This document shows positions 13,398 to 61,096 of a stretch of 64,000 bases of DNA, one piece after another. The notes under the pieces are model-generated. The model did not search any database, was not told where the DNA came from, and was given only the letters and a program-made list of their open reading frames with translations. The DNA is from Protaetiibacter intestinalis (GTDB taxonomy: Bacteria > Actinomycetota > Actinomycetes > Actinomycetales > Microbacteriaceae). The stretch lies in NCBI RefSeq assembly GCF_003627075.1, contig NZ_CP032630.1, forward strand, positions 682,001-746,000, read 5' to 3'. Both the position numbers and the translations under genes were made by a program. Within the stretch, counting starts at the first letter, position 1. The number at the start of each line of letters is the position of its first letter.

Positions 13398-13468
13398 CCG
13401 CAACTCAGGAGAAGAGGCGGATTCCGTGGCACATGGAGGCGGAACGGGCCGGATCTCCTGAGTTGCGG
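13398..13468. repeat. 71-bp inverted-repeat element downstream of the CHAP gene
   Basis: CCGCAACTCAGGAGA (13398-13412) and its exact reverse complement (13454-13468) enclose a 41-bp centre. Perfect 15-bp arms with no gene inside suggest either a terminator-like structure for the CHAP gene (ending at 13497) or a small mobile palindromic element. No U-tract is present, so a plain intrinsic terminator is less likely. Confidence 0.6.
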
Positions 13469-13496
13469 AATCGCGGGGAGGCGGAGGGACGAGCGA

Positions 13497-44341: not shown

Positions 44342-44589
44342 CGATCCTCGTTCTCGGGTGTGGGGAGCGCGCTCCGGCAGGATACGGTGCGCGCGCGAGC
44401 GGCGCCAAACCGCGCGGGCTCCCCCCGATGGTAGGAAGCCAATCTGGGAAGCGTCCGGACGGACGCTGAAGGCGGGCGCCGCGTCACGCTGTGTCATACT
44501 GGGCGGGATCGTCGGCACCGCTGCCGGCGGTCTTCCATTCACTACGGATCGTCCGGCACGTACCTGCCGGTGAAGGAGAACGATTAGTC

Positions 44590-45699
<1,110 letters not shown>

Positions 45700-45754: not shown

Positions 45755-45826
45755 TCAAACGCTGCAGCGCTTGTCTTCCCGCGCCGGCAGTTGCTGCAAC
45801 CCGGGGCCGAGCGCTACAGCGTTTGT
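45755..45826. repeat. 72-bp palindromic intergenic element, copy A
   Basis: Begins TCAAACGCTGCAGCGCTT and ends GCGCTACAGCGTTTGT, so the ends are inverted repeats of each other, with a GC-rich centre. Two other copies of exactly 72 bp occur at 53393 and 61025. This copy lies between the ATPase terminator and the DUF4032 promoter, ending four bases before the TAGGCT -10 box. Confidence 0.85.
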
Positions 45827-45841
45827 GAATAGGCTCGGAGC

Positions 45842-47128
45842 GTGAGCTCCAGCCTGTCGATCACTTCCGCCGTGCCCGACCCGGCACTCCTCGACCTGCC
45901 GTGGGGGCTGCCGCTCGAGCTGTGGCCGGATGAGACGATCGCCGCGCTGCCGAAGGGCATCTCGCGGCACCTCGTGCGCTTCGTGCACCTCGAGGGCTTC
46001 GTGGTCGCCATCAAGGAGACCTCGGCCGAGCTGGCCCGCCGCGAGTACGAGATGCTGCGCACCCTGCAGCGCATCGACATCCCGTGCGTCGAACCGGTCG
46101 CGGTCGTCACGGGCCGCGTCTCGCCTGACGGCGAGGAGCTCTCGCCCGCGCTCGTCACGCGCCACCTCAAGTTCTCGCTGCCCTACCGCGCCCTCTACTC
46201 GCAGGCGCTGCGCCCCGACACCGCCACGCGCCTCGTCGACGCGCTCGCGCTGCTGCTCGCCCGGCTGCACATCATCGGCTTCTTCTGGGGCGACGTCTCG
46301 CTCTCGAACACCCTGTTCCGCCGGGATGCGGGCGCCTTCGCCGCCTACCTCGTGGATGCCGAGACCGGCAAGCTCTACGACGGCGGGCTCTCGAACGGGC
46401 AGCGCGAGAACGACCTCGAGATCGCGCGCGTCAACATCGCGGGCGAGCTGCTCGACCTGCAGTCCGGCGGTCGCCTCGACGAGGCCGTCGACCCGGTCGA
46501 GATCGCCGACGGCATCGTCGCCGCGTACCGCTCGCTGTGGCGCGAGCTCACGGCATCCGAGACGTTCCCCGAGGCGGAGCGCTGGCGCATCCGCGAGCGC
46601 GTGGAGCGCCTCAACGACCTTGGCTTCGACATCGAGGAGCTGTCGATCCGCCGCGGCGACGACGGCACGAGCGTGCGCATCCAGCCCAAGGTCGTGGATG
46701 CCGGGCACCACTCGCGGCGGCTGCTGCGGCTCACCGGCCTCGACGCGGGCGAGAACCAGGCCCGCCGCCTGCTCAACGACCTCGACGCCTACCGTGCCAC
46801 CCGCAAGCGCGCCGACGAGGACGAGGAGATGGTGGCACATGAGTGGCTCGTGAAGGTGTTCGAGCCGGTCATCCGCTCGATCCCCAAGGAGCTGCGCGGC
46901 AAGCTCGAGCCCGCCGAGGTGTTCCACCAGCTGCTCGACCACCGCTGGTACCTCTCGCAGGAGCAGAACCGCAACGTGCCGCTCGCGGAGGCGCTCACCT
47001 CCTACGTCGACACCGTGCTGCGCCACCGCCGCGACGAGATGACGGTCGTGGGGCCGGCGACCTCGGCGATCACCCTGCCGATCGCCGTCGTCGACGACGG
47101 CGAAGAGGACTGGAGGGCGAAGGTCTGA
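45842..47128 (+). CDS. DUF4032 protein with kinase-like N-terminal region
   Basis: A 428-residue protein. The N-terminal part resembles lipopolysaccharide/aminoglycoside-type kinases: VRFVHLEGFVVAIKETSAELARREYEML (Lys and Glu like kinase VAIK/E), RLHIIGFFWGDVSLSNTLF (catalytic loop like HGD..N) and VDAETGKLYDGGLS. The C-terminal DUF4032 domain follows from about residue 230. Activity is not established. Leaderless start TAGGCT-N6-GTG. Its stop overlaps the start of the next gene. Confidence 0.85.
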   Translation: MSSSLSITSAVPDPALLDLPWGLPLELWPDETIAALPKGISRHLVRFVHLEGFVVAIKETSAELARREYEMLRTLQRIDIPCVEPVAVVTGRVSPDGEELSPALVTRHLKFSLPYRALYSQALRPDTATRLVDALALLLARLHIIGFFWGDVSLSNTLFRRDAGAFAAYLVDAETGKLYDGGLSNGQRENDLEIARVNIAGELLDLQSGGRLDEAVDPVEIADGIVAAYRSLWRELTASETFPEAERWRIRERVERLNDLGFDIEELSIRRGDDGTSVRIQPKVVDAGHHSRRLLRLTGLDAGENQARRLLNDLDAYRATRKRADEDEEMVAHEWLVKVFEPVIRSIPKELRGKLEPAEVFHQLLDHRWYLSQEQNRNVPLAEALTSYVDTVLRHRRDEMTVVGPATSAITLPIAVVDDGEEDWRAKV

Positions 47129-47601
47129 TGAGCGAGCTGCCCGAGTACACGGTCGCCGATCTGGAGCGCGAGGAGGCGTTCGACGTGCCGTCGTTCACGA
47201 ACGACGACGCCGTCGACCTGGGCCTCGCGGCCGTCGAGGTGATCGACGAGCGCGGTCTCGACCTCGCGGTGCGCATCGTGCTGCGCGGCGACGTGGTCTT
47301 CCAGGCCAAGCTCGGCGCATCCGGGCCCGGCAACGACCCGTGGCTCGCCGGCAAGGCCGCCGTCGCCGCGCGCTTCGGCGAGCCCTCGCTGCTCGTGCGC
47401 CGCCGTCACGAGGAGGCGGGCACCGAGTTCCAGCCCGCGGATGACGGGGAACGCGCCCACGGCGGCGCGATCCCCCTCTTCGTCGCGGGCGAGCTCGTCG
47501 GCACGATCACGACCTCGGGCGAGCCCGACGTCGTCGACCACGCGACCGCCGCGGAGGCGCTCCGCCGCTACGCGGTCGCGCGGAGCTTCGCCACCTCGTA
47601 G
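47128..47601 (+). CDS. UPF0303/haem-degrading domain (GlcG/HbpS-like) protein
   Basis: A 157-residue soluble protein. FDVPSFTNDDAVDLGLAAVEVI and the mid-domain VFQAKLGASGPGNDPWLAGKAAVAARFGEPSL fit the UPF0303 branch of the GlcG/HbpS family (YBR137W-like). Biochemical role is unclear; related proteins bind or degrade haem or act as chaperone cofactors. Translationally coupled to DUF4032 by TGATG. The 3' end overlaps convergent rlmB by 34 bp. Confidence 0.82.
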   Translation: MSELPEYTVADLEREEAFDVPSFTNDDAVDLGLAAVEVIDERGLDLAVRIVLRGDVVFQAKLGASGPGNDPWLAGKAAVAARFGEPSLLVRRRHEEAGTEFQPADDGERAHGGAIPLFVAGELVGTITTSGEPDVVDHATAAEALRRYAVARSFATS

Positions 47602-48551
47602 AGGGCGACCGAGACGGCGATGCCGGCGTTGAGCGACTCGGTGTCGGAGGAGATCGGGATCGACACGATCGCGTCGCACGTCTCGGTGACGAGCCGCGAG
47701 AGGCCCTTGCCCTCCGAGCCGACGACGATCACGATGGGGCGCTCGGCGAAGCCGATGCCGGGCAGCGACACGTCGCCGCCGCCGTCGAGCCCGAGCACGA
47801 AGAGCCCCTCCTTCTTGAGGGTCTGCAGCGTCTGCGTGAGGTTCGCGGCCATCGCGACGGGCACGCGCACGGCGGCGCCCGCCGAAGTCTTCCAGGCGGA
47901 TGCCGTCATCCCCACCGAGCGCCGCTGCGGCACGATCACGCCGTGCGCGCCGAAGGCGCCCGCCGAGCGGATGATGGCGCCCAGGTTGCGCGGGTCGGTC
48001 ACCCCGTCGAGGGCGACGATGAGCGGCGGCCGACCGGTCTGGTGGGCGCGCTCCACGAGGTCGAGCGGGTGCGCGTACTCGTACGGCGGCACCTTGAGCG
48101 CGAGCCCCTGGTGCACGGCGTCGTGGCCGCTCATCCGGTCGAGCTCGGGTCGCATCACCTCGAGCACGGGGATGCCGCGCTTGGTCGCGATCGACAGCGC
48201 CTCCTTGACGCGGTCGTCCATCTCGACGCGCGCCGCGACGTAGAGGGTCGTGGCGGGGATGCGGGCGCGCAGCGCCTCGAGCACCGAGTTGCGTCCCGTG
48301 ACGAGCTCGCCCTCATCCGCCTTCTTGGCGCGCGGGGGGCGCTTGGTGCCGTCTCCCGACTTGCCGTGGCGGGCGCGCGCCGCCTCGAGGCGGTCGTTCG
48401 CGGCCTTGCGCTTGCCGGCGACGTGCCAGCTGCGGTCCTCGGCCTTCGGGGTCGGCCCCTTGCCCTCGAGCGCCTTGCGCCCGTGGCCGCCCGTGCCCGT
48501 GGTCGCGCCCTTCTTCGACTTGCGCGCGCCCGGGCGTCCCGGCTTCGCCAT
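47568..48551 (-). CDS. rlmB: 23S rRNA (guanosine-2'-O-)-methyltransferase RlmB
   Basis: SpoU-type methyltransferase, 327 residues. A Lys/Arg/Gly-rich N-terminal 85 residues (RNA binding, typical of actinobacteria) leads to the substrate-binding domain ELVTGRNSVLEAL. The knotted catalytic domain has ALDGVTDPRNLGAIIRSA, VGSEGKGLSRL and SLNAGIAVSVALYE. The ATG at 48551 follows GGGAG. It is downstream of cysS with a 28-bp gap, the usual actinobacterial cysS-rlmB order. Confidence 0.95.
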   Translation of the reverse strand: MAKPGRPGARKSKKGATTGTGGHGRKALEGKGPTPKAEDRSWHVAGKRKAANDRLEAARARHGKSGDGTKRPPRAKKADEGELVTGRNSVLEALRARIPATTLYVAARVEMDDRVKEALSIATKRGIPVLEVMRPELDRMSGHDAVHQGLALKVPPYEYAHPLDLVERAHQTGRPPLIVALDGVTDPRNLGAIIRSAGAFGAHGVIVPQRRSVGMTASAWKTSAGAAVRVPVAMAANLTQTLQTLKKEGLFVLGLDGGGDVSLPGIGFAERPIVIVVGSEGKGLSRLVTETCDAIVSIPISSDTESLNAGIAVSVALYEVAKLRATA

Positions 48552-48579
48552 CAGCGGCTCCCCTGTCTCGGTGTCATGG

Positions 48580-49992
48580 TCATGCGAGGCTCCAGCGGGC
48601 ACCCGCGGGTGTGTCGTCGATCGCGATGCCCGCCGTGGCGAGCTCGTCGCGGATGCGGTCGGCGGCCGCGAAGTCCTTCGCGGCTCGGGCGGCGGCCCGG
48701 TCGGCGAGCAGTTTCTCGACGAGCGCGCCGAGCGCGATCTCGGATGCGGCCGATCCGCCCTGCCGCCACTCGGCCGCGGTCGGGTCGACGCCGAGCACGC
48801 CCGTCATCGCGAGCACCTGCTCGCGCGCGAGTGCGACGGAGGCGAAGTCGCCCGCGTCGAGCGCGGTGTTGCCGGCGCGCACGGTCTCGTGCAGCACGCC
48901 GAGCGCCTGCGGCACCCCGAGGTCGTCGTCCATGGCCGCCGCGAACGCATCCGGCACCCGGCCGTCGCCGGGGCCCGCCACCCGGGCCGCCTCGAGGGCG
49001 CGCTCGGCGCGCTCGAGGAACCCGGCGATGCGGTCGAGCGCCGCCTCTGCCTCCTCGAGGGCGCCGGGGTGGTAGTCGATGACCGAGCGGTAGTGGGCGC
49101 TCGCGAGGTAGTAGCGCACGACGACGGGCGGGGCGAGCGCGAGGAACTCGGCCGCGTAGATCGAGTTGCCGAGCGACTTCGACATCTTCTGGCCCTCGAC
49201 CATGACGATGCCGTTGTGCACCCAGTAGCGCGCGAAGGCGTCGCCCGCGGCGGTCGACTGGGCGAGCTCGTTCTCGTGGTGCGGGAAGCGCAGGTCGAGC
49301 CCGCCGCCGTGGATGTCGAACTCGGCTCCGAGGTAGCGCTTCGACATCGCCGAGCACTCGATGTGCCACCCGGGGCGTCCCGCGCCCCACGGCGAGTTCC
49401 AGGACGCCGACTCCGGCTCCTCGGGCTTCGACCCCTTCCAGAGCGCGAAGTCGCGCGGGTCGCGCTTGCCGCGGGTGGCGGCATCCGGCGAGTCGGCCAT
49501 GTCGGCGAGCTTCTGCCGCGTGAGCTCCCCGTAGGCCGCCCAGGTGCGCACGTCGAAGTAGACGTCGCCCGTGCCGTCGTCGGCGACGTAGGCGTGACCA
49601 CGCTCGATGAGGGTCTCGATGAGCTCCTGCATCTGCGGGATGCTCGCGGTGGCGCGCGGCTCGTAGCTCGGCGGCAGGATGCCGATGGCGCGGTAGCCGG
49701 CCGTGAACTCGAGTTCGACCCGGTAGGCGACCGCCCACCAGGGCTCGCGCTCGGAGGCGTTGGCGAGCACTTTGTCGTCGATGTCGGTGACGTTGCGCAC
49801 GAAGGTGACGTCGTAGCCGCGGTAGGCGAACCAGCGCCGCCACAGGTCGTAGGCGAGCGCGGAGCGCAGGTGGCCGACGTGCGGCGAGGACTGCACGGTG
49901 GGCCCGCAGACGTACATGCCCACCCGGCCGGGCTCGAGCGGCGCGAAGTCGCGGAGCGCCTGGGCGCGGCTGTCGTACAGGCGGATCGTCAC
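48580..49992 (-). CDS. cysS: Cysteinyl-tRNA synthetase
   Basis: Class I synthetase, 470 residues. [20 protein letters not shown] contains the zinc Cys and the HIGH-like motif; GWHIECSAM and PHHENELAQ supply other zinc ligands; [13 protein letters not shown] is KMSKS. Length and the KMSKS loop favour CysS over MshC. The GTG start at 49992 is leaderless (TAAACT-N6-GTG). The tail [20 protein letters not shown] is normal. Confidence 0.96.
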
Positions 49993-50058
49993 CCGGCGAG
50001 TTTACCGGCGCGCCGTCGCCTCCCCGCAGCCCGGGTCGACATCCGCGCGAGAGATCGA

Positions 50059-50077
50059 TAAGGTTAGCCTTACCTGA
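50059..50077. promoter_or_regulatory. Iron box (IdeR/DtxR operator) upstream of the HtaA protein
   Basis: TAAGGTTAGCCTTACCTGA closely fits the 19-bp DtxR/IdeR consensus (TTAGGTTAGSCTAACCTAA), with near-perfect dyad symmetry in AGGTTAG-C-CTTACCT. It lies about 60 bp before the start codon, in promoter position. IdeR is encoded at 16585-17277. Confidence 0.88.
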
Positions 50078-50137
50078 GTCACTCGCGATGGTGCGCGTCG
50101 CGTGACCCGATCACATCCCAACCACGGAGATTCGCTC

Positions 50138-53100
50138 TTGTCGTACGCGCCTGCCCGCGCGCGCTCCCGCGCGCCCTGGATCGCCATCCTGCTCGTCCCG
50201 CTGCTCGCCCTCGCGAGCGTGCTCGTGCCCACCGCCCCCGCATCCGCCGCCCCCGGCGACGTCGCAGCCGCCACCTTGCAGTGGGGCTTCAAGCAGAGCT
50301 TCCGCAACTACCTCACCGGCCCGATCGCCCACGGCCACGTCACGGCGACCGACGTCGATACCGCGACGCCCTACGGCTGGTCGGGCGGCACGGGCGCGGC
50401 CTCCGGCGGCACCGGTACGGTCGCCTACCCCGGCACCCTGCAGTTCCAGGGGCACGAGGCGACCGGGGTGCCCGCGGGCGAGTACGCCCTCGACGTCACG
50501 ATCACCGACATGCGCGTGCGCGTGACCTCGGCGACCACCGCCGAACTCCAGGCGGATGTCGTCTCGCGCAGCATGAGCACGCTCTCGTTCGAGACGTACA
50601 CGGATGTCGTGCTCGCGACCCTCGACCTCTCGGCCGGCACGAACGCCTCGACCGCGACCACCGTCGCCTACACGGCCGTGCCCGCCGCGCTCACGGCGGC
50701 AGGGGCACCGGCCTTCGCCGGCTTCTACGCCGCCGGCACCGCCCTCGACCCGGTCTCCTTCAGCTGGCCCGTCGAGCAGGCACCCGTCGTGCCGACGCTC
50801 GCGGTCGACGTGACGACGGCCACCGAGGCCGACGGCCTCACCGTCTCGGTCGCCGCCACCGACTTCGAGGGCATCAGCGCGAGCTACGTCTCGCTCATCG
50901 AGAAGGGCAGCGACACCGCCTTCGTCGGAGCCGCGGCCCAGGTCGCCGTCGTCGACGGCGCGTTCGCCCAGACCCTCACCGCCCCCGCGGCATCCCTCGA
51001 CAAGACCAAGCAGTACGAGGTGATCGCCTGGAAGACCCGGAGCTACCCCGGGCCGAGCACCACCTTCGCCCGCGCCGACGTGACCCTCAGCGAGGCACAG
51101 TGGGACGCGCTGATCCCGCCGGTGCCCACCCTCGCCGTCGCGGTCACCTCCGCCACGCAGGCCGACGGCGTGACCGTCTCGGTCACCGCCACCGACTTCG
51201 ACGGCATCAGCGCGAGCTACGTCTCGCTCATCGAGAAGGGCAGCGACACCGCCTTCGTCGGAGCCGCGGCCCAGGTCGCCGTCGTCGACGGTGCGTTCAC
51301 CCAGACCCTCACGGCGCCCACGGCATCCCTCGACAAGACCAAGCAGTACGAGGTCATCGCCTGGAAGACCCGCAGCTACCCCGGCCCCACCACCACCTAC
51401 GACCGCGCCGACGTGGTCCTCACCGAGGAGCAGTGGAACGCCGTCTTCCCGGCCCCCGCCGCGCTCACCCCGACCGTGACCGCGGCGGGCACGACGGGCG
51501 GACTCACCGTCTCCGTCGCCGGAGCCGCATTCGGCGACGTCACCGCGAGCTACCTCTCGATCATCGAGAAGGGCAGCGAGTACAACTACATCGGCGCCCC
51601 CGCGCAGGTGGCGGTCGTCGACGGCGCCTTCACGCAGGAGCTCACGGCGCCCACGGCATCCCTCGACAAGACCAAGCAGTACGAGGTCATCGCCTGGAAG
51701 ACCCGCAGCAACCCGAGTGCCGCCACGATCTACGCGCGCGCCGACATCGCCGTGACGACGAGCCAGTGGGATGCGGTGTTCCCGCCGGTCGTGCTCAACC
51801 CGACCCCCGTCGCGGGCAGCCTCAGCTGGGGCGTGAAGGCGAGCTTCCGCTCGTACGTCACGGGCCCCATCGCGCACGGCACCATCTCGACGACGGGCGC
51901 GACGGCCGGAACCGGCGGCTACGTCTTCCCGCAGTCGGGTGCGGCGCAGCTCACGAACGGCACCGGCACGGTCGCCTACTCGGGTTCGGTGCGGTTCACC
52001 GGTCACGACGGCGTGCTCGACCTGCGCCTGTCCGACCCGCAGGTGCGCATCGACTCGGCCACCGCGGGCACGCTGCTCGTGCGGGTGAACGGCGGCTCGC
52101 ACGTCGCCTTCGCGACCCTGGCGCTCGGTTCGGCCACGAAGACGACGGATGCCACGGGCGCCGTGCGGTACGCGGGCGCCCCCGCGACGATCACGGCATC
52201 CGGAGCCGGCGCCTTCTCCCTCGAGGGCTCGACGTTCTACCCGGCGGGCACGGCACTCGACCCGGTGACCTTCGTCGTCGGATCCGCCGGCAGCGCCTCG
52301 AGCGGCACGGTCGTCGTGGCGTCCGCCGCCCCGGCCACGCCGACGAACACCCCCGCCGCGGCCCCGCCCGCCACGACCGGCATCACCGTCACCGACGGCG
52401 AGCCGGGCGAGGGCGGCGAGCTCACCGCGGAGGCCGACGGCTTCCAGCCGAACGAGACCGGTATCCTCGTGGTGATCTACTCGACCCCCACGGTGCTCGC
52501 CGAGAACGCGACGGCGGATGCGGACGGCCGCGTCAGCTGGACCGGCACCCTGCCGCGCGGCCTCACCGGGCAGCACACGCTCACCTTCCAGGGCTCCGTC
52601 GACCGCGGCATCGTGCTGAACATCGCGGCCGCGAGCACCCTGCCGTGCACGGCATCCGACGCGAGCCTCGTGTGGGGTTTCAAGGAGAGCTTCCGCGCCT
52701 ACATCGACGGCTCGATCGCGAACGGCGAGTGGACGACCGAGGGCGACGTCGCCTACGCGACGCCCGTGTTCACCTGGACCGGCGGCAGCGGCGGTGCCGA
52801 CGAGGACGGCGCGCTCGACGTGCAGTACTCGGGCTCGGTGCGCTTCACGGGTCACGGCGGCGTGCTCGACACGACGGTCGCGAACCCGCGCGTCGTGATC
52901 GACGGCGACCGCGCCGTGCTGCTGCTCGACGTCACAGGCACGACGCAGGAGGGCGAGGCCGTCTCCCAGACGGCCGTCGAGTTCGCCGAGCTCGACCTCT
53001 CGGGCGTCGAGCGCACGGTCGAGGGCGACGAGGTGACGTGGGCCGACATCCCCGCGACGCTCACCGCCGCGGGGGCCGCCGCGTTCGGCACCTACCCCGA

Positions 53101-53323
53101 GGGCGAGGAGCTCGACCCGGTGACGATCACCGCGACCGTCGAGAGCGGATGCGTCGAGACCGCGGTCGACGAGCCGACCGCCGAGGCGACGGACGACGAC
53201 CTCGCCCCCGAGCAGACCGCATCCGCGGGCTGGCCGCTCTGGGCGACCGTGCTGCTCATCGCCCTGCTCGCCGCCGCGATCGTCACCGCGGCCGTCATCC
53301 TGGTGCGTCGCCGCCGCGGCTGA
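50138..53323 (+). CDS. Cell-surface haem-binding protein with three HtaA domains
   Basis: A 1061-residue exported protein. The signal peptide ends near residue 36 (APASAAPG). HtaA domains begin around residues 46 (QWGFKQSFRNYLTG), 560 (SWGVKASFRSYVTG) and 841 (VWGFKESFRAYIDG), each with a later F.GH motif. Three repeats of about 111 residues lie at 218-551, an Ig-like domain at about 750-830, and one helix (from about 1031) plus RRRRG anchors the C-terminus. It likely binds haem for iron uptake. TTG at 50138 has GGAG eight bases upstream; GTG at 50102 is an alternative start. Iron-box control expected. Confidence 0.92.
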   Translation: MSYAPARARSRAPWIAILLVPLLALASVLVPTAPASAAPGDVAAATLQWGFKQSFRNYLTGPIAHGHVTATDVDTATPYGWSGGTGAASGGTGTVAYPGTLQFQGHEATGVPAGEYALDVTITDMRVRVTSATTAELQADVVSRSMSTLSFETYTDVVLATLDLSAGTNASTATTVAYTAVPAALTAAGAPAFAGFYAAGTALDPVSFSWPVEQAPVVPTLAVDVTTATEADGLTVSVAATDFEGISASYVSLIEKGSDTAFVGAAAQVAVVDGAFAQTLTAPAASLDKTKQYEVIAWKTRSYPGPSTTFARADVTLSEAQWDALIPPVPTLAVAVTSATQADGVTVSVTATDFDGISASYVSLIEKGSDTAFVGAAAQVAVVDGAFTQTLTAPTASLDKTKQYEVIAWKTRSYPGPTTTYDRADVVLTEEQWNAVFPAPAALTPTVTAAGTTGGLTVSVAGAAFGDVTASYLSIIEKGSEYNYIGAPAQVAVVDGAFTQELTAPTASLDKTKQYEVIAWKTRSNPSAATIYARADIAVTTSQWDAVFPPVVLNPTPVAGSLSWGVKASFRSYVTGPIAHGTISTTGATAGTGGYVFPQSGAAQLTNGTGTVAYSGSVRFTGHDGVLDLRLSDPQVRIDSATAGTLLVRVNGGSHVAFATLALGSATKTTDATGAVRYAGAPATITASGAGAFSLEGSTFYPAGTALDPVTFVVGSAGSASSGTVVVASAAPATPTNTPAAAPPATTGITVTDGEPGEGGELTAEADGFQPNETGILVVIYSTPTVLAENATADADGRVSWTGTLPRGLTGQHTLTFQGSVDRGIVLNIAAASTLPCTASDASLVWGFKESFRAYIDGSIANGEWTTEGDVAYATPVFTWTGGSGGADEDGALDVQYSGSVRFTGHGGVLDTTVANPRVVIDGDRAVLLLDVTGTTQEGEAVSQTAVEFAELDLSGVERTVEGDEVTWADIPATLTAAGAAAFGTYPEGEELDPVTITATVESGCVETAVDEPTAEATDDDLAPEQTASAGWPLWATVLLIALLAAAIVTAAVILVRRRRG
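50789..51790 (+). repeat. Three tandem coding repeats of about 333 bp
   Basis: Units start near 50789, 51122 and 51464. The first two are nearly identical in DNA, including GTCTCGCTCATCGAGAAGGG and CTCGACAAGACCAAGCAGTA, and the third diverges in its N-terminal half. Shared protein signs are SLIEKGSDTAFVG, QVAVVDGAF and SLDKTKQYEVIAWKTRS. Recent duplication is likely. They act as stalk or binding modules between HtaA domains 1 and 2. Confidence 0.88.
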
Positions 53324-53336
53324 CGCACCACCGACT

Positions 53337-53378
53337 CCGCCCGTCCGGCCCCCGGCGCACCCGGGACCGGACGGGCGG
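53337..53378 (+). terminator. Terminator after the HtaA gene
   Basis: CCGCCCGTCCGG (53337-53348) pairs perfectly with CCGGACGGGCGG (53367-53378); CTCTGTGTT follows. It sits 14 bp after the stop codon, between convergent genes. Confidence 0.85.
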
Positions 53379-53392
53379 CTCTGTGTTCTCGG

Positions 53393-53464
53393 TCAAACGC
53401 TGCAGCGCTTCGCCCCGCGCGCCTGCATTTCGACCCGCGCCAGGCCGAACGCTGCAGCGTTTGA
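53393..53464. repeat. 72-bp palindromic intergenic element, copy B
   Basis: Begins TCAAACGCTGCAGCGCTT and ends ACGCTGCAGCGTTTGA; the outer 15 bases are perfect inverted repeats. It lies between the HtaA terminator and the end of ispDF. It aligns with the reverse complement of copy C at about 55 of 72 positions by hand count. Confidence 0.85.
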
Positions 53465-53470
53465 CCAGGA

Positions 53471-54640
53471 TCAGCGGGTGAGGAGGGCGGTGGCGACGGC
53501 GAGGAGGCCCTCGCCGCGGCCCGTGAAGCCGAGACCGTCGGAGGTCGTGGCGGCGACGCTCACGGGGGCGCCGACCAGCTCGCCGAGGTGCGCCTCGAGC
53601 TCCATGCGGCGGGCGGCGAGCCGGGGCCGGTTGGCGACCACCTGCACCGCGACGTTGCCCACCGTGAAGCCCGCGCCGGCCACGAGCGCGAGCGTCTCGC
53701 GCAGGAAGATGCCGCTGGCGGCATCCGCGAACCGCGGGTCGGCCGAACCGAAGCGCGAACCGAGGTCGCCGAGCCCGGCGGCCGAGAGCAGGGCGTCGCA
53801 GATCGCGTGGATGACGGCGTCGCCGTCCGAGTGCCCGTCGAGTCCCGGCTCGTCGGGGAAGTACACGCCGCCGAGCCAGAGCGGCACCGCCTCGTCGTAG
53901 CGGTGCACGTCGACGCCGACCCCGGTGCGGATGCGCGAGCCGCCGTCGAGCAGCTGCTCGGCGCGGTTCAGATCCCACGGGGTCGTGATCTTGAAGGCGC
54001 GCGGCTCGCCGGGCACCGTGACGACCGCACCGCCCGCGGCGGCGAAGAGCGCGGCGTCGTCGGTGAAGTCCTCGGTCGCCGCCGCGTAGGCGGCCTCGAG
54101 CGCGGCACGCGGGAACCCCTGCGGCGTCTGCACGTGCACGAGGTCGCTGCGGTCGACCGCACCCACCACGCGCTCCCCCTCGACCCGCTTGACGGTGTCG
54201 ATCACGGGCAGCGCGGGGATGACGCCCGCCTCGCCGCCCTGCAGCACGGCGTGGGCGACCCGGTCGATGAGCGCGCTCGGCGCGAGGGCGCGTGCCGCGT
54301 CGTGCACGAGCACCGCCTGCACGCCCTCGGCGAGCGCCGCGAGCCCCGCCACGACCGACTGCTGGCGCGTCTCGCCGCCCGCGACGACCGTGAGGTGCTC
54401 GGATGCCGCCCCCGCGACATGCTCGCCGATCGCCCGGGCGCGCGCGAGCAGCGCGGCCGGCGCGACGACGATCACCTGCGCCGGTTCGACCGACGCGAAC
54501 ACCCCGCGCAGGGCGTGCTCGAGGATCGTCGCGCCGTGCAGCTGCACGAACGCCTTCGGCTCCTCGCGCCCGAGACGCGTGCCGCCGCCCGCGGCGACGA
54601 CGACGACGGCCAGGCGCACGGCATCCGGGGTCGGAGTCAT
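53471..54640 (-). CDS. ispDF: Bifunctional IspD-IspF isoprenoid enzyme
   Basis: Fusion of two non-mevalonate pathway enzymes, 389 residues. The IspD part (1-230) has VVVAAGGGTRLGREEPKAF, LVHDAARAL and QTPQGFPRAAL. The IspF part (from about 237) has GVGVDVHRYDEAVPLWLGG, LDGHSDGDAVIHAICDALL and FTGRGEGLLAVATALL, including zinc Asp/His. The fusion is common in this part of the actinobacteria. Leaderless start: TAGGCT-N6-ATG. carD lies just upstream but has its own promoter. Confidence 0.95.
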   Translation of the reverse strand: MTPTPDAVRLAVVVVAAGGGTRLGREEPKAFVQLHGATILEHALRGVFASVEPAQVIVVAPAALLARARAIGEHVAGAASEHLTVVAGGETRQQSVVAGLAALAEGVQAVLVHDAARALAPSALIDRVAHAVLQGGEAGVIPALPVIDTVKRVEGERVVGAVDRSDLVHVQTPQGFPRAALEAAYAAATEDFTDDAALFAAAGGAVVTVPGEPRAFKITTPWDLNRAEQLLDGGSRIRTGVGVDVHRYDEAVPLWLGGVYFPDEPGLDGHSDGDAVIHAICDALLSAAGLGDLGSRFGSADPRFADAASGIFLRETLALVAGAGFTVGNVAVQVVANRPRLAARRMELEAHLGELVGAPVSVAATTSDGLGFTGRGEGLLAVATALLTR

Positions 54641-54660
54641 GCGACGAGCCTACGGGGGGG

Positions 54661-55143
54661 CTAGGAGGCGAGGACCTCGTCGAGGACGGTCGACGCCTTC
54701 TCCTCGTCGGTCTTCTCGGCGAGCGCGAGCTCGGAGATGAGGATCTGGCGCGCCTTCGCGAGCATGCGCTTCTCACCGGCCGAGAGGCCGCGGTCCTGGT
54801 CGCGGCGCCACAGGTCGCGCACGACCTCGGAGACCTTGATGACATCGCCCGAGGCGAGCTTCTCGAGGTTGGCCTTGTAGCGGCGACTCCAGTTGGTGGG
54901 CTCCTCCGTGAAGGGGGCGCGGAGCACCTCGAAGACCTTGTCGAGGCCCTCCTTGCCGATCACGTCGCGCACGCCGACGAGGTCGACGTTCTCCGCCGGC
55001 ACCTCGATGATGAGGTCGCCCTGGGTGACGTTGAGCTTCAGGTACTTCTTGGTCTCACCCTTGATGACCCGGTCCTTCACCTCGATGATGGTTGCCGCAC
55101 CGTGATGGGGGTAAACGACGGTTTCGCCGACCTCGAAGAGCAT
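54661..55143 (-). CDS. carD: RNA-polymerase-binding transcription factor CarD
   Basis: Essential actinobacterial factor that stabilises the open promoter complex, 160 residues. It starts [19 protein letters not shown] (Tudor-like RNAP interaction domain) and has [16 protein letters not shown] with the conserved Trp that wedges at the -10 edge. AAGGA precedes the ATG, and a TAGAAT -10 lies about 30 bp upstream. Its neighbourhood with ispDF is widely conserved in actinobacteria. Confidence 0.96.
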
Positions 55144-55270
55144 GGAGTTGTTCCTTCCGCAGACCTCTCATTCTAACACGGCACCCCGGATGCGGGCCCG
55201 GCCGGGCACGGGCCGCTCCGCCGAGCGGGTACGCTGGGAGGGCTCGTCGTCTGATCGCCTGGAGGATTCC

Positions 55271-55789
55271 GTGAGAGCACGTGCCGTGGCCGCCATCGCC
55301 CTGAGCGGAGCGCTCGCCCTCGGCCTGGCAGGGTGCAACTTCGTCACCCCGCCCGCGACGACGACGCCCTACGACCCGAGCGACGGCATCAACTTCACGG
55401 TCGGCGACCTCAAGCTGCGCAACGTGCTCGTCATCACCGACGACGGCGAGACCGGCAGCTTCGTGGCGGTCGCCGTCAACACGACCGACGACGACATCCC
55501 GTTCCTCGTGCAGTGGCAGACCGACGGCGAGTGGAACCAGGTGGCGCTCGTCGCGGAGGCCGACGCGAGCACCGCGTTCGGCTGGGGCGACGGGCAGCGC
55601 GTCAACCTCGACAACCTCGGGGTGGCGCCGGGCGGCCTGCTCGACACCGTCATCCACGTCGCCGACGACCAGCGCGGCGAGCAGATCCCCGTGCTCGACG
55701 CGGCGTTCCCGGAGTACGGCGACTCGCTGCCGACCCCGACCCCGACGCCCACTCCGACGCCGACGCCCACCGCGACGCCGGCCCCGTAG
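55271..55789 (+). CDS. Small exported lipoprotein
   Basis: A 172-residue lipoprotein with signal VRARAVAAIALSGALALGLAGC (lipobox LAGC, Cys22). The mature domain reads NFTVGDLKLRNVLVITDDGETGSFV and resembles actinobacterial proteins of unknown function. A Thr/Pro repeat ends it. The GTG at 55271 follows GGAGG at five-base spacing. It lies between divergent carD and convergent regX3; its proximity to the pho genes is suggestive but not proof of a phosphate link. Confidence 0.8.
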   Translation: MRARAVAAIALSGALALGLAGCNFVTPPATTTPYDPSDGINFTVGDLKLRNVLVITDDGETGSFVAVAVNTTDDDIPFLVQWQTDGEWNQVALVAEADASTAFGWGDGQRVNLDNLGVAPGGLLDTVIHVADDQRGEQIPVLDAAFPEYGDSLPTPTPTPTPTPTPTATPAP

Positions 55790-55795
55790 CCCGGC

Positions 55796-56479
55796 TCAGT
55801 TCTCGAAGCGGTAGCCGAGGCCGCGCACCGTGACGAGCAGCTGCGGCTGCGAGGGGTCGGGCTCGATCTTGGCCCGGATGCGCTTGATGTGCACGTCGAG
55901 CGTCTTGGTGTCGCCGAAGTAGTCGGATCCCCAGATCCGGTCGATGAGCTGACCGCGCGTGAGCACGCGTCCCGCGTTGCGCAGCAGGAACTCCAGCAGC
56001 TCGAATTCCTTGAGCGGCATGGACACCTCGGCGCCGTCGACCATGACCGCGTGACGCTCGATGTCCATCCGCACCGGCCCCGCCTCGAGCACCGCGTCGA
56101 GCTCCTCGACGGGCGCCTCCACGTGCCGGCGCAGCACGGCGCGGATGCGGGCCAGCAGCTCTCGGCTCGAGTACGGCTTGGTGACGTAGTCGTCGGCGCC
56201 GAGCTCGAGGCCGACGACGATGTCGACCTCGGAGTCCTTCGCGGTCAGCATGATGATCGGCACGCTCGAGCGGTTGCGCAGCTCACGGCACACCTCGGTG
56301 CCGGGCAGCCCCGGCAGCATGAGGTCGAGCAGCACGAGGTCGGCGCCCGCGCGGTCGAACTCGGCGAGCGCCGCGCGGCCGTCGCCGGCGATGACCGTCT
56401 CGTAGCCCTCCCGCCGCAGCAGGAACGCGAGCGGCTCCGAGAGCGAGGGCTCGTCTTCGACGATGAGGATTCGGGTCAC
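55796..56479 (-). CDS. regX3: Response regulator RegX3/PhoB-like
   Basis: OmpR-family regulator of phosphate starvation genes, 227 residues. Phospho-acceptor Asp52 (LLDLMLPGLPG), Lys101 (VTKPY), and a winged helix ending HIKRIRAKIE...VTVRGLGYRFE. GTG at 56479 overlaps the senX3 stop (GTGA); the longer frame to 56569 lies in senX3 and is rejected. The named assignment rests on pairing with a SenX3-like kinase and divergent phoU. Confidence 0.9.
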   Translation of the reverse strand: MTRILIVEDEPSLSEPLAFLLRREGYETVIAGDGRAALAEFDRAGADLVLLDLMLPGLPGTEVCRELRNRSSVPIIMLTAKDSEVDIVVGLELGADDYVTKPYSSRELLARIRAVLRRHVEAPVEELDAVLEAGPVRMDIERHAVMVDGAEVSMPLKEFELLEFLLRNAGRVLTRGQLIDRIWGSDYFGDTKTLDVHIKRIRAKIEPDPSQPQLLVTVRGLGYRFEN

Positions 56480-57633
56480 GGACGGGCTCCACGGCTGGGG
56501 ACGGCCGGCGCAGGTGCTGCCTCCGGCAGGCGGATGGTGAACGTCGAGCCGCGCCCCTGCTGCGACCACACCCGCACGTCGCCCCCGTGGTTCTGCACCA
56601 CGTGCTTGACGATCGAGAGGCCGAGGCCGGTGCCGCCGGTCTGGCGGCTGCGGGCGGAGTCGACGCGGAAGAAGCGCTCGAAGACGCGGTCGCGCTCCGA
56701 CTCGGGGATGCCGACCCCCTGATCCGCGACGGCGATCTCGATCGCGCCGTCGCGGCGGCTGACGCCGACGCCGACGCGCGTGCCGTCGGGCGAGTACTGG
56801 ATGGCGTTGGCGATGAGGTTGTGCACGGCGGTCACGAGCATCGACTCGTTTCCCCAGACGACCGCGTCGGGCTCGGCCTGGGCGACGATCGTGATGCGGT
56901 GCGACTCGGCGGCGACGCGGTTCGCGTCGACCGCCTGGGCGACGATCGTGTCGATCTTCACGCGGTCGGCGTTCTCGAGCGCGTCGGCCGCCTGCAGGCG
57001 GCTCAGCTCGATGATCTCGTGGGTGAGGCTGCGCAGCCGCTCGGCCTCGATCGTGAGCCGATCGGCGAAACGGCGCACCTCATCCGGTTCGTCGGCGGCC
57101 AGCTCGAGGGCCTCGGCGAGCAGGCCGATCGCGCCGATCGGCGTCTTCAGCTCGTGGGAGATGTTGGCGACGAAGTCGCGGCGCACGTCCTCGAGGCGGT
57201 GCGCCTCGGTGCGGTCGTCGGCGAGCAGCAGCACGAAGCGCGCGCCGAGCGGCGCCGCGCGCACGAGCAGGTGCACCTGGGCGTCGCCGTAGGGACCACG
57301 CGGCAGCTGGAGCTCCTCGTTGGCCGCGGTGCCCTCGTGACGCACCCGGTCGACGAGCTCGACGAGCTCGGGGTGCGCGAGGGCGTGGTTCCAGACGAGG
57401 CCGAGCGCCACCGCCGCCGTCGAGCACGTGACGACGCTGTTGGAGGAGTCGAGCACGATGCCGGCCGACTCGAGCGCGTCGATGACCTCCTCGACCCCGT
57501 CGGGCACGGAGGGCGTCACCACGGCGGCCGCACGCTGGCCGCGCGCGTGCGCGGCGACGACGGCGGCGGTGCCACCGACCCCCACCGCCAACCCGAAGCC
57601 CAGGGCAGCGGGCACGAGCCATGCCGCGTCCAT
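56476..57633 (-). CDS. senX3: Sensor histidine kinase SenX3/PhoR-like
   Basis: Membrane kinase of phosphate sensing, 385 residues. An N-terminal helix (residues 4-28) is followed by a PAS-like region, HisKA with His160 (VANISHELKTPIGAIGLLAEAL, typical of SenX3) and the ATPase motifs NLIANAIQYS, DQGVGIPESE, FERFFRVD and GGTGLGLSIVKH. Only one or two membrane passes are visible, as in SenX3. Leaderless start TAATCT-N6-ATG. Divergent from phoU, the usual actinobacterial order. Confidence 0.93.
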   Translation of the reverse strand: MDAAWLVPAALGFGLAVGVGGTAAVVAAHARGQRAAAVVTPSVPDGVEEVIDALESAGIVLDSSNSVVTCSTAAVALGLVWNHALAHPELVELVDRVRHEGTAANEELQLPRGPYGDAQVHLLVRAAPLGARFVLLLADDRTEAHRLEDVRRDFVANISHELKTPIGAIGLLAEALELAADEPDEVRRFADRLTIEAERLRSLTHEIIELSRLQAADALENADRVKIDTIVAQAVDANRVAAESHRITIVAQAEPDAVVWGNESMLVTAVHNLIANAIQYSPDGTRVGVGVSRRDGAIEIAVADQGVGIPESERDRVFERFFRVDSARSRQTGGTGLGLSIVKHVVQNHGGDVRVWSQQGRGSTFTIRLPEAAPAPAVPSRGARP

Positions 57634-57660
57634 GCGACTAGATTAGGGCGGGCCCGCACG

Positions 57661-57733
57661 GGTGAACGGCGGGTGCGCGAGGTCTCGACATCCCTTAGGT
57701 GGATGTTCACGACCAGGACACCGCCCGTTCACC
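57661..57733. promoter_or_regulatory. GTTCAC(C) boxes between senX3 and phoU, candidate RegX3 sites
   Basis: GTTCAC at 57705-57710 and GTTCACC at 57727-57733 lie 22 bp apart (two 11-bp units), and GGTGAAC at 57661-57667 is the same box on the minus strand. PHO boxes in actinobacteria are built from 11-bp GTTCACC-type units. The arrangement suggests RegX3 binding at both promoters. Confidence 0.65.
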
Positions 57734-57831
57734 TTCCCGCGACACCGTGTCCGATGCGGGCCGATGCGCCATCCGGTGCCCTGTGCCCGCGACGAGGCCG
57801 ACCCGGGGTCGGCGAGGAAGGATCGGAATCG

Positions 57832-58473
57832 ATGCGCGAGGTGTTCCAGCAGGAGCTGCGTGAGGTGCAGGAGCGCCTCGTGGAGATCTCCACCCTCGTC
57901 GGCGACTCGATCGAGAAGGCCACCCGCGCCTTCAACGAGTCGGACGTCTCGCTCGCCGAGACGGTGATCGAGGACGACCGCCGCATCGACGCCCTCGCGG
58001 CCGAGCTCGACGAGCTCGCGATCACGATCCTGGCCCGGCAGCAGCCGGTCGCGCGCGACCTGCGCATCGTGGTGAGCGCGCTGCGGATCTCGGCCTCGCT
58101 CGAGCGGATGGGCGACATGGCCGAGCACATCGCGCAGCTCGCGCGCTACCGCTTCCCCGAGAAGGTCGTGCCGAAGGGCCTGCGCGGCACCTTTCGCGAG
58201 ATGGGCGCCCTCGACGTCGAGATCGCGCGCAAGCTCACCGAGCTGCTCGCCACCGAGGACCCGGCGATCGCCGAGCACATCCGCAACGAGGACGACAAGG
58301 TCGACGCGCTGCACCTCGCGGTGTTCGACAAGGTGCTCGGCGAGACGTGGAAGGGCGAGACCGCCGACACGGTCGACGCGACCCTGGCATCCCGCTACCA
58401 CGAGCGCTTCGCCGACCACGCCGTCTCGATCGCCAAGAAGGTGCAGTACCTCGCCACCGGCGACTGGACCTGA
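57832..58473 (+). CDS. phoU: Phosphate transport regulator PhoU
   Basis: A 213-residue protein of two three-helix bundles, each with the metal-binding E/DxxxD pattern: SLAETVIEDDRRIDALAAELDE... and DPAIAEHIRNEDDKVDALH. RDLRIVVSALRISASLERMGDMAEHIAQLARY is the family hallmark. It damps SenX3 signalling when phosphate is plentiful. ATG at 57832 has AAGGA upstream. No pst genes are in the window. Confidence 0.95.
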   Translation: MREVFQQELREVQERLVEISTLVGDSIEKATRAFNESDVSLAETVIEDDRRIDALAAELDELAITILARQQPVARDLRIVVSALRISASLERMGDMAEHIAQLARYRFPEKVVPKGLRGTFREMGALDVEIARKLTELLATEDPAIAEHIRNEDDKVDALHLAVFDKVLGETWKGETADTVDATLASRYHERFADHAVSIAKKVQYLATGDWT

Positions 58474-58476
58474 GTC

Positions 58477-59343
58477 TCAGCTCCCGGCGGCCGCGGCCTT
58501 GCGCGCCGCGAACTCCTTGTTCAGCCGCAGGTAGCGGCGCAGGCCGCTGAACGGCACGGCGCGCGGCCAGTCCTCGCTGCGGAAGTAGGCATCCGTGCCG
58601 CCGTCGACGAACACGACGCTGCCCGCCATGAACTCGGCGGCGGGCCCGAGCAGGAACACCACCCAGTCGGCGAGCTGCTCGGCGTCGCCGAGGTGCCCGA
58701 CCGGGATCGGGAACGCCTCGATCGCCCCGCGCTGGTGCGGGTCGTCGAGCTGCGCCTGCAGCAGCGGGGTGAGGATGGCGCCGGGCGCGATCGCGTTGAG
58801 GCGGATGCCGGCGCCGGCCCACTCCGGGCGCACGGCCGCGCGGCGGAGCCACCGGGTGACGGCGATCTTCGAGCCCGCGTAGACCATCGCCGAGGCGTTG
58901 TCCTTGAAGAGCCGGGTCGCGGCGACCGCCTTCTTGGCGTCCCCGGCGAGGAAGGCGGCGATCGTCCGCTTCGGCACGACCGGCACGGTGGTCGAGGAGT
59001 TCGACGAGAACACGACGACGCGCGAGGAGCCCGCGGCGGCGAGCGCCGGCCGCCACGCCTCGAGCAGCTCGACGACGCCGAAGTAGTTGACCTCGGCGAT
59101 GAGCAGCTCGCGGCCGGGGTGCGGCCCGAGGCCCGCGGCGAGCACGGCGCCGTCGAGCCGGCCGTCGGCCCGCGCGACGACCGCCTTCGCGGCGGCGGCG
59201 CGGCCCTCGGCCGTCGAGAGGTCGGCGACGACCTCCGCGTCCTTCAGGTCGACGCCGATGACGGTGTGGCCGGCGGCGCGCAGCTTGTCGGCGGTCGCCT
59301 TGCCCATTCCGGATGCGGATCCGGTGACGGCGTAGGTGCTCAT
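58477..59343 (-). CDS. Short-chain dehydrogenase/reductase
   Basis: NAD(P)-dependent SDR of 288 residues. TGSASGMG (residues 7-14) binds the cofactor, VLAAGLGP replaces NNAG, and YAGSK holds the catalytic Tyr and Lys; the family end VFVDGGTDAYF is intact. The pattern resembles 3-alpha-hydroxysteroid dehydrogenase-type SDRs. It is translationally coupled (ATGA) to the MarR gene upstream, so the substrate is probably the MarR ligand or a related compound. Confidence 0.9.
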   Translation of the reverse strand: MSTYAVTGSASGMGKATADKLRAAGHTVIGVDLKDAEVVADLSTAEGRAAAAKAVVARADGRLDGAVLAAGLGPHPGRELLIAEVNYFGVVELLEAWRPALAAAGSSRVVVFSSNSSTTVPVVPKRTIAAFLAGDAKKAVAATRLFKDNASAMVYAGSKIAVTRWLRRAAVRPEWAGAGIRLNAIAPGAILTPLLQAQLDDPHQRGAIEAFPIPVGHLGDAEQLADWVVFLLGPAAEFMAGSVVFVDGGTDAYFRSEDWPRAVPFSGLRRYLRLNKEFAARKAAAAGS

Positions 59344-59855
59344 GGGGTTCCTCCGTGGGTGTCGGGTCGGGCTTCGACGGCGTCGGCGAAGCGGTGGAGC
59401 AGGGCGGCGAATCGCTCGCGGTCGGCCTCCGTCCAGTCCGCGAGCAGTCGGCGCATGAGCGCGTCGCCGGCCGAGAACAGGTTCCGCGCCGACGCGCGCC
59501 CGGCATCCGTCAGCACGACGAGCGTGGCGCGTGCGTCGAGCGGATCCGGGGTCCGGTGGGCGAGCCCCGCGGCGGCGAGGCTCTCGAGCAGGCGGCTCGT
59601 GGCGGCCGGCGAGGTGTCGAGCAGCCCGGCCAGCGCCGAGGGACGCTGGGGTCCGCGCGCCGCGAGCGCGTAGATCAGGCGGATGGCGCGCTCGTCGTCG
59701 GGGATGCCGGCGCCGCGCGCGATCTCGCGCTGGTAGTCGCCGGAGCTCCACTGAGCGAGCACGCGCACGAGCGAGGCGGTGACGTCGTCGCGGTAGGGCA
59801 GGTCGAGGCGCTGCGGATGCTGCGTCGCGTCGTCGCGGTCGAGCTTGCGGGCCAT
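59340..59855 (-). CDS. MarR-family transcriptional regulator
   Basis: A 171-residue winged-helix regulator: RLIYALAARGPQRPSALAGLLDTSPAATSRLLESLAAAGL spans the recognition helix, followed by the wing TPDPLDARATLVVLTDAGRA. First gene of a two-gene operon with the SDR. A palindrome overlaps its promoter at 59865-59881, suggesting autorepression. AGGTGAGG precedes the ATG. Confidence 0.88.
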   Translation of the reverse strand: MARKLDRDDATQHPQRLDLPYRDDVTASLVRVLAQWSSGDYQREIARGAGIPDDERAIRLIYALAARGPQRPSALAGLLDTSPAATSRLLESLAAAGLAHRTPDPLDARATLVVLTDAGRASARNLFSAGDALMRRLLADWTEADRERFAALLHRFADAVEARPDTHGGTP

Positions 59856-59864
59856 GCCTCACCT

Positions 59865-59881
59865 ACTTCCAGTTTGGAAGT
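59865..59881. promoter_or_regulatory. Palindromic operator at the MarR-SDR promoter
   Basis: ACTTCCA-GTT-TGGAAGT: perfect 7-bp arms with a 3-bp centre. It adjoins TATACT, the likely -10 on the minus strand, so binding would block the promoter. Confidence 0.7.
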
Positions 59882-59923
59882 ATACGCGCAGACACGTGCG
59901 CACGCACGGCGGGGTCCCGAGCG

Positions 59924-60238
59924 CTAGGAGCCCAGCTCGTCGATCGCGCGCTCCAGCCGCTCGACCTTGCCGTCGAGCTCGCCCGCGTAGCCGGGGCGGA
60001 TGTCGGCCTTCAGCACGAGCGAGACGCGCGAACCGAAGGCGGCCACGGCATCCGTGGCGCGCTTGACGACGTCGAAGACCTCGTCCCACTCCCCCTCGAG
60101 CTCGGTGAACATCGAGGTGGTGCGGTTCGGCAGGCCCGACTCCCGCACGATCTGCACCGCCGCCGCGACGGCGTCGTGCACCGAGCCGTCCGCGTTGCCG
60201 GTGCCGGACGGGGCGACCGAGAAGGCGACGAGCACCAT
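59924..60238 (-). CDS. Thiamine-binding protein (MTH1187/YkoF-like)
   Basis: A 104-residue ferredoxin-like-fold protein: MVLVAFSVAPSGTGNADGSVHDAVAAAVQIV, then TSMFTELEGEWDEVFDVVKRAT, is the MTH1187 (DUF77) pattern reported to bind thiamine or its precursor. It follows gpmA after 10 bp and is probably co-transcribed. The biological role is uncertain. Confidence 0.85.
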   Translation of the reverse strand: MVLVAFSVAPSGTGNADGSVHDAVAAAVQIVRESGLPNRTTSMFTELEGEWDEVFDVVKRATDAVAAFGSRVSLVLKADIRPGYAGELDGKVERLERAIDELGS

Positions 60239-60248
60239 CCGCCCGGCC

Positions 60249-60995
60249 CTACTTCTTGCCCTGCGCGGCGACCGCGGCGGCGCCGGCGGCGGCGGCCTCC
60301 GGGTCGAGGTAGCGGCCGGGGCCGGTGGGGCGGAAGTCGTCGTCGAGCTCGTAGACGAGCGGGATGCCGGTGGGGATGTTGAGCTCGGCGATCTCGTCGT
60401 CGCCGATGCCGTCGAGGTGCTTGACGAGGGCGCGCAGCGAGTTGCCGTGCGCCGTGACGAGCACCGTCGTGCCGGCGGCGAGGTCCTGCGTGATGTCGGA
60501 GAACCAGTAGGGCAGCATCCGGTCGATCACGAGCTTGAGGCTCTCGGTGCGGGGGAGCTCGGCGTCGGCGAGGTCGGCGTAGCGCTCGTCGCCCACCTGG
60601 CTGTACTCGGCGTCGTCGGCGAGCGGCGGCGGCGGGGTGTCGAAGCTGCGACGCCAGGTCTGGAACTGCTCGGGGCCGTACTTCTCGAGGGTCTCGGCCT
60701 TGTCGAGGCCCTGCAGGGCGCCGTAGTGGCGCTCGTTGAGGCGCCAGCTGCGCTTGACCGGGATCCACAGGCGGTCGGCCACCTCGAGGGCGAGGTTGGC
60801 GGTCTGGATGGCGCGGGTCAGCACGCTCGTGTAGAGGATGCCGGGCTTCAGGCCCGACTCGGCGAGCAGCTCGCCCGCGCGCTTCGCCTCGGCGACGCCC
60901 TGCTCGGAGAGGCGCACATCCACCCATCCGGTGAAGAGGTTCTTCTGGTTCCAGTCGGAGTTGCCGTGGCGCAGCAGGATGAGCGTGGAGGTCAT
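60249..60995 (-). CDS. gpmA: 2,3-bisphosphoglycerate-dependent phosphoglycerate mutase
   Basis: Glycolytic enzyme interconverting 3- and 2-phosphoglycerate, 248 residues. The catalytic [10 protein letters not shown] has His10; [14 protein letters not shown] is the dPGM motif, and [15 protein letters not shown] holds the second catalytic His. The C-terminus is Ala-rich. Leaderless start TAGGGT-N6-ATG. The upstream 72-bp element ends in GTTTGACC, which could supply TTGACC as a -35 box, 15 bp before the -10. Confidence 0.96.
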
Positions 60996-61024
60996 GCCCC
61001 CACCCTACCGAGCGCACATGTTGG

Positions 61025-61096
61025 TCAAACGCTGTAGCGCTGGGTGTGACGCGGCAGGTATTCCTGGCGCGCGCGGCGAGGCGCTATAGCGTTTGA
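61025..61096. repeat. 72-bp palindromic intergenic element, copy C
   Basis: Begins TCAAACGCTGTAGCGCTG and ends GCGCTATAGCGTTTGA, exactly 72 bp like copies A and B but inserted in the opposite orientation to B. It fills nearly the whole gap between divergent gpmA and a methyltransferase gene, so both promoters involve it. Confidence 0.85.

Follow-up and report, generated by a model that had tools for sequence, protein, structure and literature searches.

What maintains a palindrome of constant length at scattered places of a bacterial chromosome? The question is raised by three intergenic palindromic elements of 72 bp, copies A, B and C, which lie in a stretch of 64,000 nucleotides of Protaetiibacter intestinalis (NZ_CP032630.1, positions 682,001 to 746,000; hereafter the window). 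The element is probably a non-autonomous repeat served by a nuclease with an AbiEi-like and a Vsr-like half, whose gene is bracketed elsewhere on the chromosome by the same ends. This arrangement would resemble that of REPINs (pairs of repetitive extragenic palindromic sequences, REPs) and their RAYTs (REP-associated tyrosine transposases), with an unrelated enzyme.

The 3.10-Mb source chromosome (genome G000) and eight congeners (G001-G008) were surveyed with a strict pattern, CAAACGCTN{40,60}AGCGTTTG, which permits gaps of 40-60, and with its reversed form as control. The first-pass annotation had suggested a mobile unit of fixed length, an idea that predicts further copies in the genome. 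These exist: the strict pattern occurs at 25 places on the source chromosome, all with a gap of 54 and thus 72 bp long, and the reversed control at none. A looser core pattern, CGCTNNAGCGN{30,60}CGCTNNAGCG, is found at 29 places (six for its reversed control), and the 26 that were listed are of equal length. Among the 60 genomes searched, two congeners contain 19 and 10 strict copies and six contain none; the single match in a distant genome (G011) differs in length and looks like chance. Pooled from the three genomes, 54 of 54 strict copies measure 72 bp. The claim of a fixed length holds for these copies and fails for longer relatives on the source chromosome, whose ends lie about 200-240 bp apart and, in one pair, 1.24 kb apart; length is therefore quantised rather than absolutely fixed. 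Positions 2-9 and 64-71 of the 54 copies are set by the search pattern itself. Beyond it, the pairs 13:60, 14:59 and 27:46 are identical in every copy, and outside the element a G precedes 48 and a C follows 44 of the 54. By an open reading frame (ORF) heuristic 51 of the 54 are intergenic; of the 24 copies on the source chromosome classified by neighbouring genes, seven are convergent, 10 tandem and seven divergent.

The ends 1.24 kb apart are the same as those of the 72-bp repeats and delimit a unit (G000:C1:2338444-2339687) with one large minus-strand gene. This partner gene (G000:C1:2338464-2339522), which lies beyond the window and occurs as a single copy per genome, encodes 352 amino acids from a presumed ATG, upstream of which the frame stays open. 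The N-terminal half matches Pfam AbiEi_1 (PF09407, E 1e-4), and the protein matches the PADLOC AbiEi models at E 2e-12. In a predicted structural model, residues 3-195 match AbiEi (6y8q) and residues 200-310 the catalytic domain of the homing endonuclease I-Bth0305I as well as Vsr; Foldseek alone ranks AbiEi first, with the nucleases not among the best 50. Residues E203, E245 and D247 are invariant in 24 homologues. Similarity and modelling together point to a fusion in which an AbiEi-type winged-helix half is followed by a nuclease like Vsr and the EDxHD homing endonucleases. Similar proteins are present in metagenomes and in a Leifsonia xyli metagenome-assembled genome, and relatives are annotated as antitoxin-domain proteins, short-patch-repair enzymes or hypothetical proteins. 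As to an AbiEii partner, the ORF list of the unit shows a single large gene, and no AbiEii model was run on the unit or on the genes beside it.

Gene and repeats occur together within the genus. Here, homologues at the 65-68% level were found only in G002 and G005, where they are bracketed by the same ends, and hence only in genomes with strict copies. Each of the three genes (G000, G002, G005) has the core CGCTRYAGCG immediately upstream of its presumed start codon. The units occupy orthologous loci in the genus; G008, G001 and G007 have nothing at this locus, G006 and G004 have other DNA there, and G003 (L210, G003:C1:2259584-2261868) retains a 243-bp remnant with a gene fragment. With the looser pattern G003 shows 10 copies that have the same core spacing and in no case the strict ends; the simplest reading is that they are orphans left by gene loss. 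A species tree built on a single locus has poor resolution apart from grouping G002 with G004. As the former has repeats and the latter does not, loss, gain or exchange must be assumed. Five intermediate forms, those with ends about 200-240 bp apart, lie on G000:C1 at 104692 (L033), 187384 (L035), 424585 (L036), 2029503 (L037) and 165383 (L034); by eye, their outer feet read CAAACGCT and their inner feet carry GGCGCGC. Possibly they are internal deletion derivatives of the 1.24-kb unit.

Comparison of orthologous places, located in the eight congeners with the window as query, revealed filled and empty species at all three sites, in agreement with the earlier proposal to look for syntenic loci with and without the element. 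At site A the element is there in G005, and the site is empty in G006, G008, G001 and G004, where 0-18 bp separate the flank matches; G003 has no visible element and a divergent left flank, and G002 and G007 have longer inserts. At site B, G003 has an element with the variant ends ACAACGCT/AGCGTTGT, and none is present in G004, G008 and G002, the remaining four congeners not being alignable closely enough to judge. Site C holds an element in G002, G005 and G003 but not in G004, G008, G001, G006 and G007. G000, G002 and G003 have in common the rare CTATAGCG of copy C, so this copy was most likely inherited in place. Flank identity between species is 80-93% at A and C and 68-85% at B. In five of five comparisons the element interior matches its orthologue at 22-24 of 42 positions, with a core-to-core length of 62 throughout. 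Target-site duplications are not visible at A, B or C, where flanks that differ by 7-20% (A, C) or up to 32% (B) could hide short ones.

The preferred reading builds on the architecture of the unit, its co-occurrence with the repeats in the genus, the fixed length, the filled and empty sites and inheritance in place, together with a predicted fold; binding, cleavage, copying or mobilisation and the direction of movement are its putative steps. The element would consist of two inverted half-sites of about 36 bp, each with the core CGCTRYAGCG. Since the core occurs both at the gene's own start and in each half-site, the AbiEi half is the obvious reader of the repeat: it would most likely bind the core at the presumed start codon, resulting in autoregulation, and likewise the core in the dispersed repeats. 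The nuclease half would nick or cut DNA at the repeats, and repair or recombination would then, rarely, copy the palindrome into new intergenic places, a role like the one proposed for RAYTs towards REPINs.

Bracketing of such nuclease genes by matched repeats looks general. With boundaries taken from the protein matches, 29 of 29 distinct homologous loci in the nine genus genomes are flanked by paired inverted repeats, which are mostly self-palindromic and mostly unrelated between gene lineages; all 29 pass E<1e-5 and 24 pass 1e-8. With ORF-based boundaries 26 of 29 pass 1e-5, and the three misses (L050, L065, L071), whose ORFs are truncated or over-extended, pass with match-based boundaries. 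Random intervals of the window score 9/200 at E<1e-5 and 0/200 at 1e-8, and matched arms are found at none of 16 window genes and at three of 56 genes from 28 other fetched loci. A swapped-flank control (24/200 at E<1e-5, 19/200 at 1e-8) was set aside as main control because it is contaminated by oppositely oriented orthologous flanks; 18 of its 20 highest scores exceed 400 bits. The likeness of arms is 0.79 within a locus and 0.71 between orthologues (p 4e-5, from observations that are not independent), as expected if one protein reads both arms.

Beyond the genus, DUF559 is matched in 59 of 149 sampled genomes of the phylum. The sample of loci comprised 30 (one, L138, from G000) and 14 picked because their contigs were good, after removal of one duplicate and of one locus that no model matched; the arm survey covered 87 loci, 86 with a model match, with L167=L138, L171=L073, L172=L069 and L173=L141 as duplicates. 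Of the 29 long (240-480 amino acids) DUF559 genes of the phylum sample, 18 have matched inverted repeats at 1e-5, again mostly self-palindromic; so do two of nine short genes and none of four very long ones. Four of eight named loci pass, including those of Microbacterium aerolatum and Compostimonas suwonensis, as do three of the four other DUF559 genes of G000 at 1e-5.

Palindromes of other nuclease genes are dispersed too. In 224 kb of G000 sequence those of three such genes (L057, L073, L168) recur elsewhere, and pattern counts for another two families show scattered copies of a single or nearly single length. The 63-bp palindrome of L073, searched with gaps of 21-41, yields 42 strict copies of one length: 22 in G000, 12 in G002, four each in G008 and G004, and none in the other five genomes. 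Genes with arms matching this palindrome are found in G000 and G002, the gene lying between two complete palindromes; in the orthologues of G003, G005 and G008 the arms match each other at every locus and differ in sequence from this palindrome, and in G004 the stretch fetched holds one palindrome and no gene. The second palindrome, GAGTGGCCA, belongs to two genomes from a different family of the class: it occurs at six places in G250, where two copies bracket a gene and four lie elsewhere, and at three in G215, where one borders a gene; eight of the nine share one length, and seven other genomes searched have none.

Some further palindromes were noticed in passing. A solo palindrome at window positions 13399-13470, near a transfer RNA gene (13283-13354), is 69% identical over 72 positions to an arm of nuclease gene L169 (G000:C1, about 336 kb), whose palindrome thus recurs there. 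In another genus of the family, two 62-bp elements (G063:C5 60783 and 813548) show the core CGCTGGAGCG/CGCTCCAGCG with unchanged core spacing; a different repeat, 52-53 bp long and bounded by CGCTCCAGCG, is present in a further genus in three near-identical copies (G141:C1 169811, 630785 and 1520609). Two 63-bp palindromes (L188 and L200, at G000:C1 263960 and 1974332) have inverted-repeat flanks, as if they sat inside the tip of an older hairpin. Over the family as a whole, insertion into existing hairpin tips was not convincing: at 6, 10, 15 and 20 bp the observed value is attained in 22, 78, 82 and 201 of 500 shuffles, respectively.

The copies in the window (Table 1) are each exactly 72 bp long, as first described, and the inverted orientation of C relative to B is confirmed by 55 of 72 matches after reversal, equal to the count made by hand. 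Copies A and B agree at 53 of 72 positions, and the terminus of copy A reads TTTGT, not TTTGA. In a scan of the window for 72-bp palindromes copy B ranks first with 26 of 36 pairs, copy C has 25 and is tied with two other places, and copy A falls below 24. The best palindromes of 20 simulated windows reach 23-25 pairs, so that palindromy by itself is marginal and the reality of the element is established by the family-level evidence rather than by the palindromy of single copies. The -10-like TAGGCT adjoining copy A, which the first-pass annotation had connected with it, recurs in G006 and G008, where site A is empty, and is therefore independent of the element. That annotation named the minus-strand ORF beside copy C gpmA. 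An Rfam match to the msiK RNA (RF01747, 64.6 bits) lies at 44526-44584, at the 5' end of the plus-strand ORF preceding copy A.

Table 1. The three copies and their core motifs (window positions)
Feature	Position	Strand	Description
Copy A	45755..45826	no strand	solo 72-bp palindromic element; between + ORFs 44491-45699 and 45842-47128
Copy A left core	45760..45769	+	CGCTGCAGCG
Copy A right core	45812..45821	+	CGCTACAGCG
Copy B	53393..53464	no strand	solo 72-bp; between convergent ORFs 50102-53323 (+) and 53471-54640 (-)
Copy B left core	53398..53407	+	CGCTGCAGCG
Copy B right core	53450..53459	+	CGCTGCAGCG
Copy C	61025..61096	no strand	solo 72-bp; between divergent ORFs 60249-60995 (-) and 61103-61909 (+)
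Copy C left core	61030..61039	+	CGCTGTAGCG
Copy C right core	61082..61091	+	CGCTATAGCG (rare variant)

Single strands of copies A-C fold stably, at -36 to -52 kcal/mol, as a structured RNA, terminator or attenuator would. Such an RNA, one of the possibilities raised at the outset, is nevertheless highly unlikely, since compensatory covariation is essentially absent: across the 54 copies 748 inner cells pair, against 750.8 after shuffling, and only the pairs 1:72, 11:62, 12:61 and 32:41 exceed their own shuffles. The Rfam scan of the window has no match at the copies, which occupy convergent, tandem and divergent gaps (seven of those in G000 being divergently placed) and keep one length with no insertions or deletions. 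An impression of base-pair covariation in the element centre, gained by hand, was ruled out by shuffling; in the 63-bp family the excess is weak (595 against 585; standard deviation 6.5, highest shuffle 604). A site bound by a protein is indicated instead, because the inverted half-sites conserve their letters and show almost no compensatory change. Such half-sites would also suit a family of operators without mobility, in which the palindromes bind an AbiEi-type regulator of its own gene and of scattered neighbours, or shape the chromosome, and gain and loss by ordinary mutation explain presence and absence. The core before all three start codons and the intergenic position of nearly all copies fit such operators; the seven of 24 classified copies between convergent genes are odd for them, orthologous sites either have the element as a whole or lack it, and the nuclease residues are conserved, which leaves this explanation improbable.

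Homing into palindromes would make the solo palindrome the original site, into one of which the nuclease gene was inserted, while the solos spread otherwise. The nuclease half is indeed nearest in fold to a homing endonuclease, and the outer halves of the 1.24-kb unit, compared by eye, look like a single 72-bp element split in two; yet complete palindromes stand on both sides of the gene in the 63-bp family and, in G250, in the GAGTGGCCA family, which simple insertion at one site would not yield, and we consider this route quite doubtful. An ordinary miniature inverted-repeat transposable element (MITE), mobilised by a classical transposase whose gene lies elsewhere in the genome, would show inverted ends, intergenic copies and filled and empty sites, all of which are seen. 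It would be a surprise all the same: target-site duplications were not seen at A, B and C, no gene but that of the AbiEi-Vsr nuclease was found to carry these ends, and Y1 transposase (PF01797) is found in none of the nine genus genomes, its control being found in five of 14 known genomes and DDE, serine and tyrosine enzymes not having been searched. The original suggestion of a mobilised REP/MITE-like unit thus survives as regards the many copies of equal length, the filled and empty sites and a likely enzyme encoded elsewhere; it does not as regards the nature of that enzyme, the candidate being an AbiEi-Vsr-type nuclease and not a transposase of a known class.

Several observations weigh against the preferred reading, a repeat served by the bracketed nuclease. 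No movement has been observed: filled and empty sites are seen between species, copy C, for one, is old and shared, and the gene units, standing at orthologous loci, were themselves not seen to move. A pure DNA-binding role would account for much without mobility. The nuclease half is assigned from predicted fold and motif, Pfam DUF559 has no match in the partner protein, and the G005 gene is split over two frames. In the 63-bp family co-occurrence is not strict, as G008 and G004 keep their copies with no matching-arm gene seen there. In the phylum 11 of the 29 long genes are, by the criterion applied, without matched arms, which two of the nine short ones possess. Arm and protein distances correlate across 28 loci (Mantel rho 0.28, reached by 0 of 2000 permutations), a correlation confounded by descent, because in each of the 22 close pairs checked one flank or more is common to both loci, for L074-L073 over only 323 bp at 72%.

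Whether the Actinobacteria harbour an undescribed, phylum-wide class of solitary AbiEi-Vsr/DUF559 nucleases, each with its own bracketing palindrome and each upholding and copying private solo palindromes of fixed length, appears evenly balanced. Among the open articles listed, no title or abstract opening ties AbiEi or DUF559 to palindromic repeats, and an earlier description is possible. If real, the class would parallel REPIN-RAYT by independent evolution, its enzyme being similar to homing endonucleases, with some members now annotated as antitoxin-domain proteins. The link to dispersed palindromes would give DUF559/AbiEi-type relatives a testable function and may account for one kind of palindrome that lies between genes in GC-rich genomes. 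To our knowledge, single-copy enzymes living with private repeat populations have been described for RAYTs; this would be a second, independent case.

Parts of the arrangement are familiar from several known systems. As in MITEs, the element is short and non-autonomous with terminal inverted repeats, whereas target-site duplication is not seen and the partner enzyme is no known transposase (classical ones were not scanned genome-wide). The N-terminal half matches the AbiEi antitoxin of the AbiE type IV toxin-antitoxin system, which is reported to bind inverted repeats and to autoregulate (excerpt of PMC7319586); here, the unit has one large gene (with AbiEii not searched by model) and the C-terminal half has a nuclease fold. 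With the EDxHD/Vsr-like homing endonuclease I-Bth0305I the protein shares, in the predicted model, the fold and conserved acidic residues, and differs in its AbiEi-like DNA-binding half, its own bracketing palindromes and the many dispersed ones. RAYTs are single copy, have REPs in their flanking DNA and a phylogeny that largely tracks the species (excerpt of PMC3116915), and REPs carry GTAG/CGTC tags (excerpt of PMC3733652). The defining Y1 (HUH) transposase of that system was not found in the nine genus genomes, and an AbiEi-Vsr-type nuclease stands in its place. The likeness lies in the layout: an enzyme gene present once per genome and flanked by repeats, many solo intergenic palindromes of one length, and for each gene a palindrome of its own.

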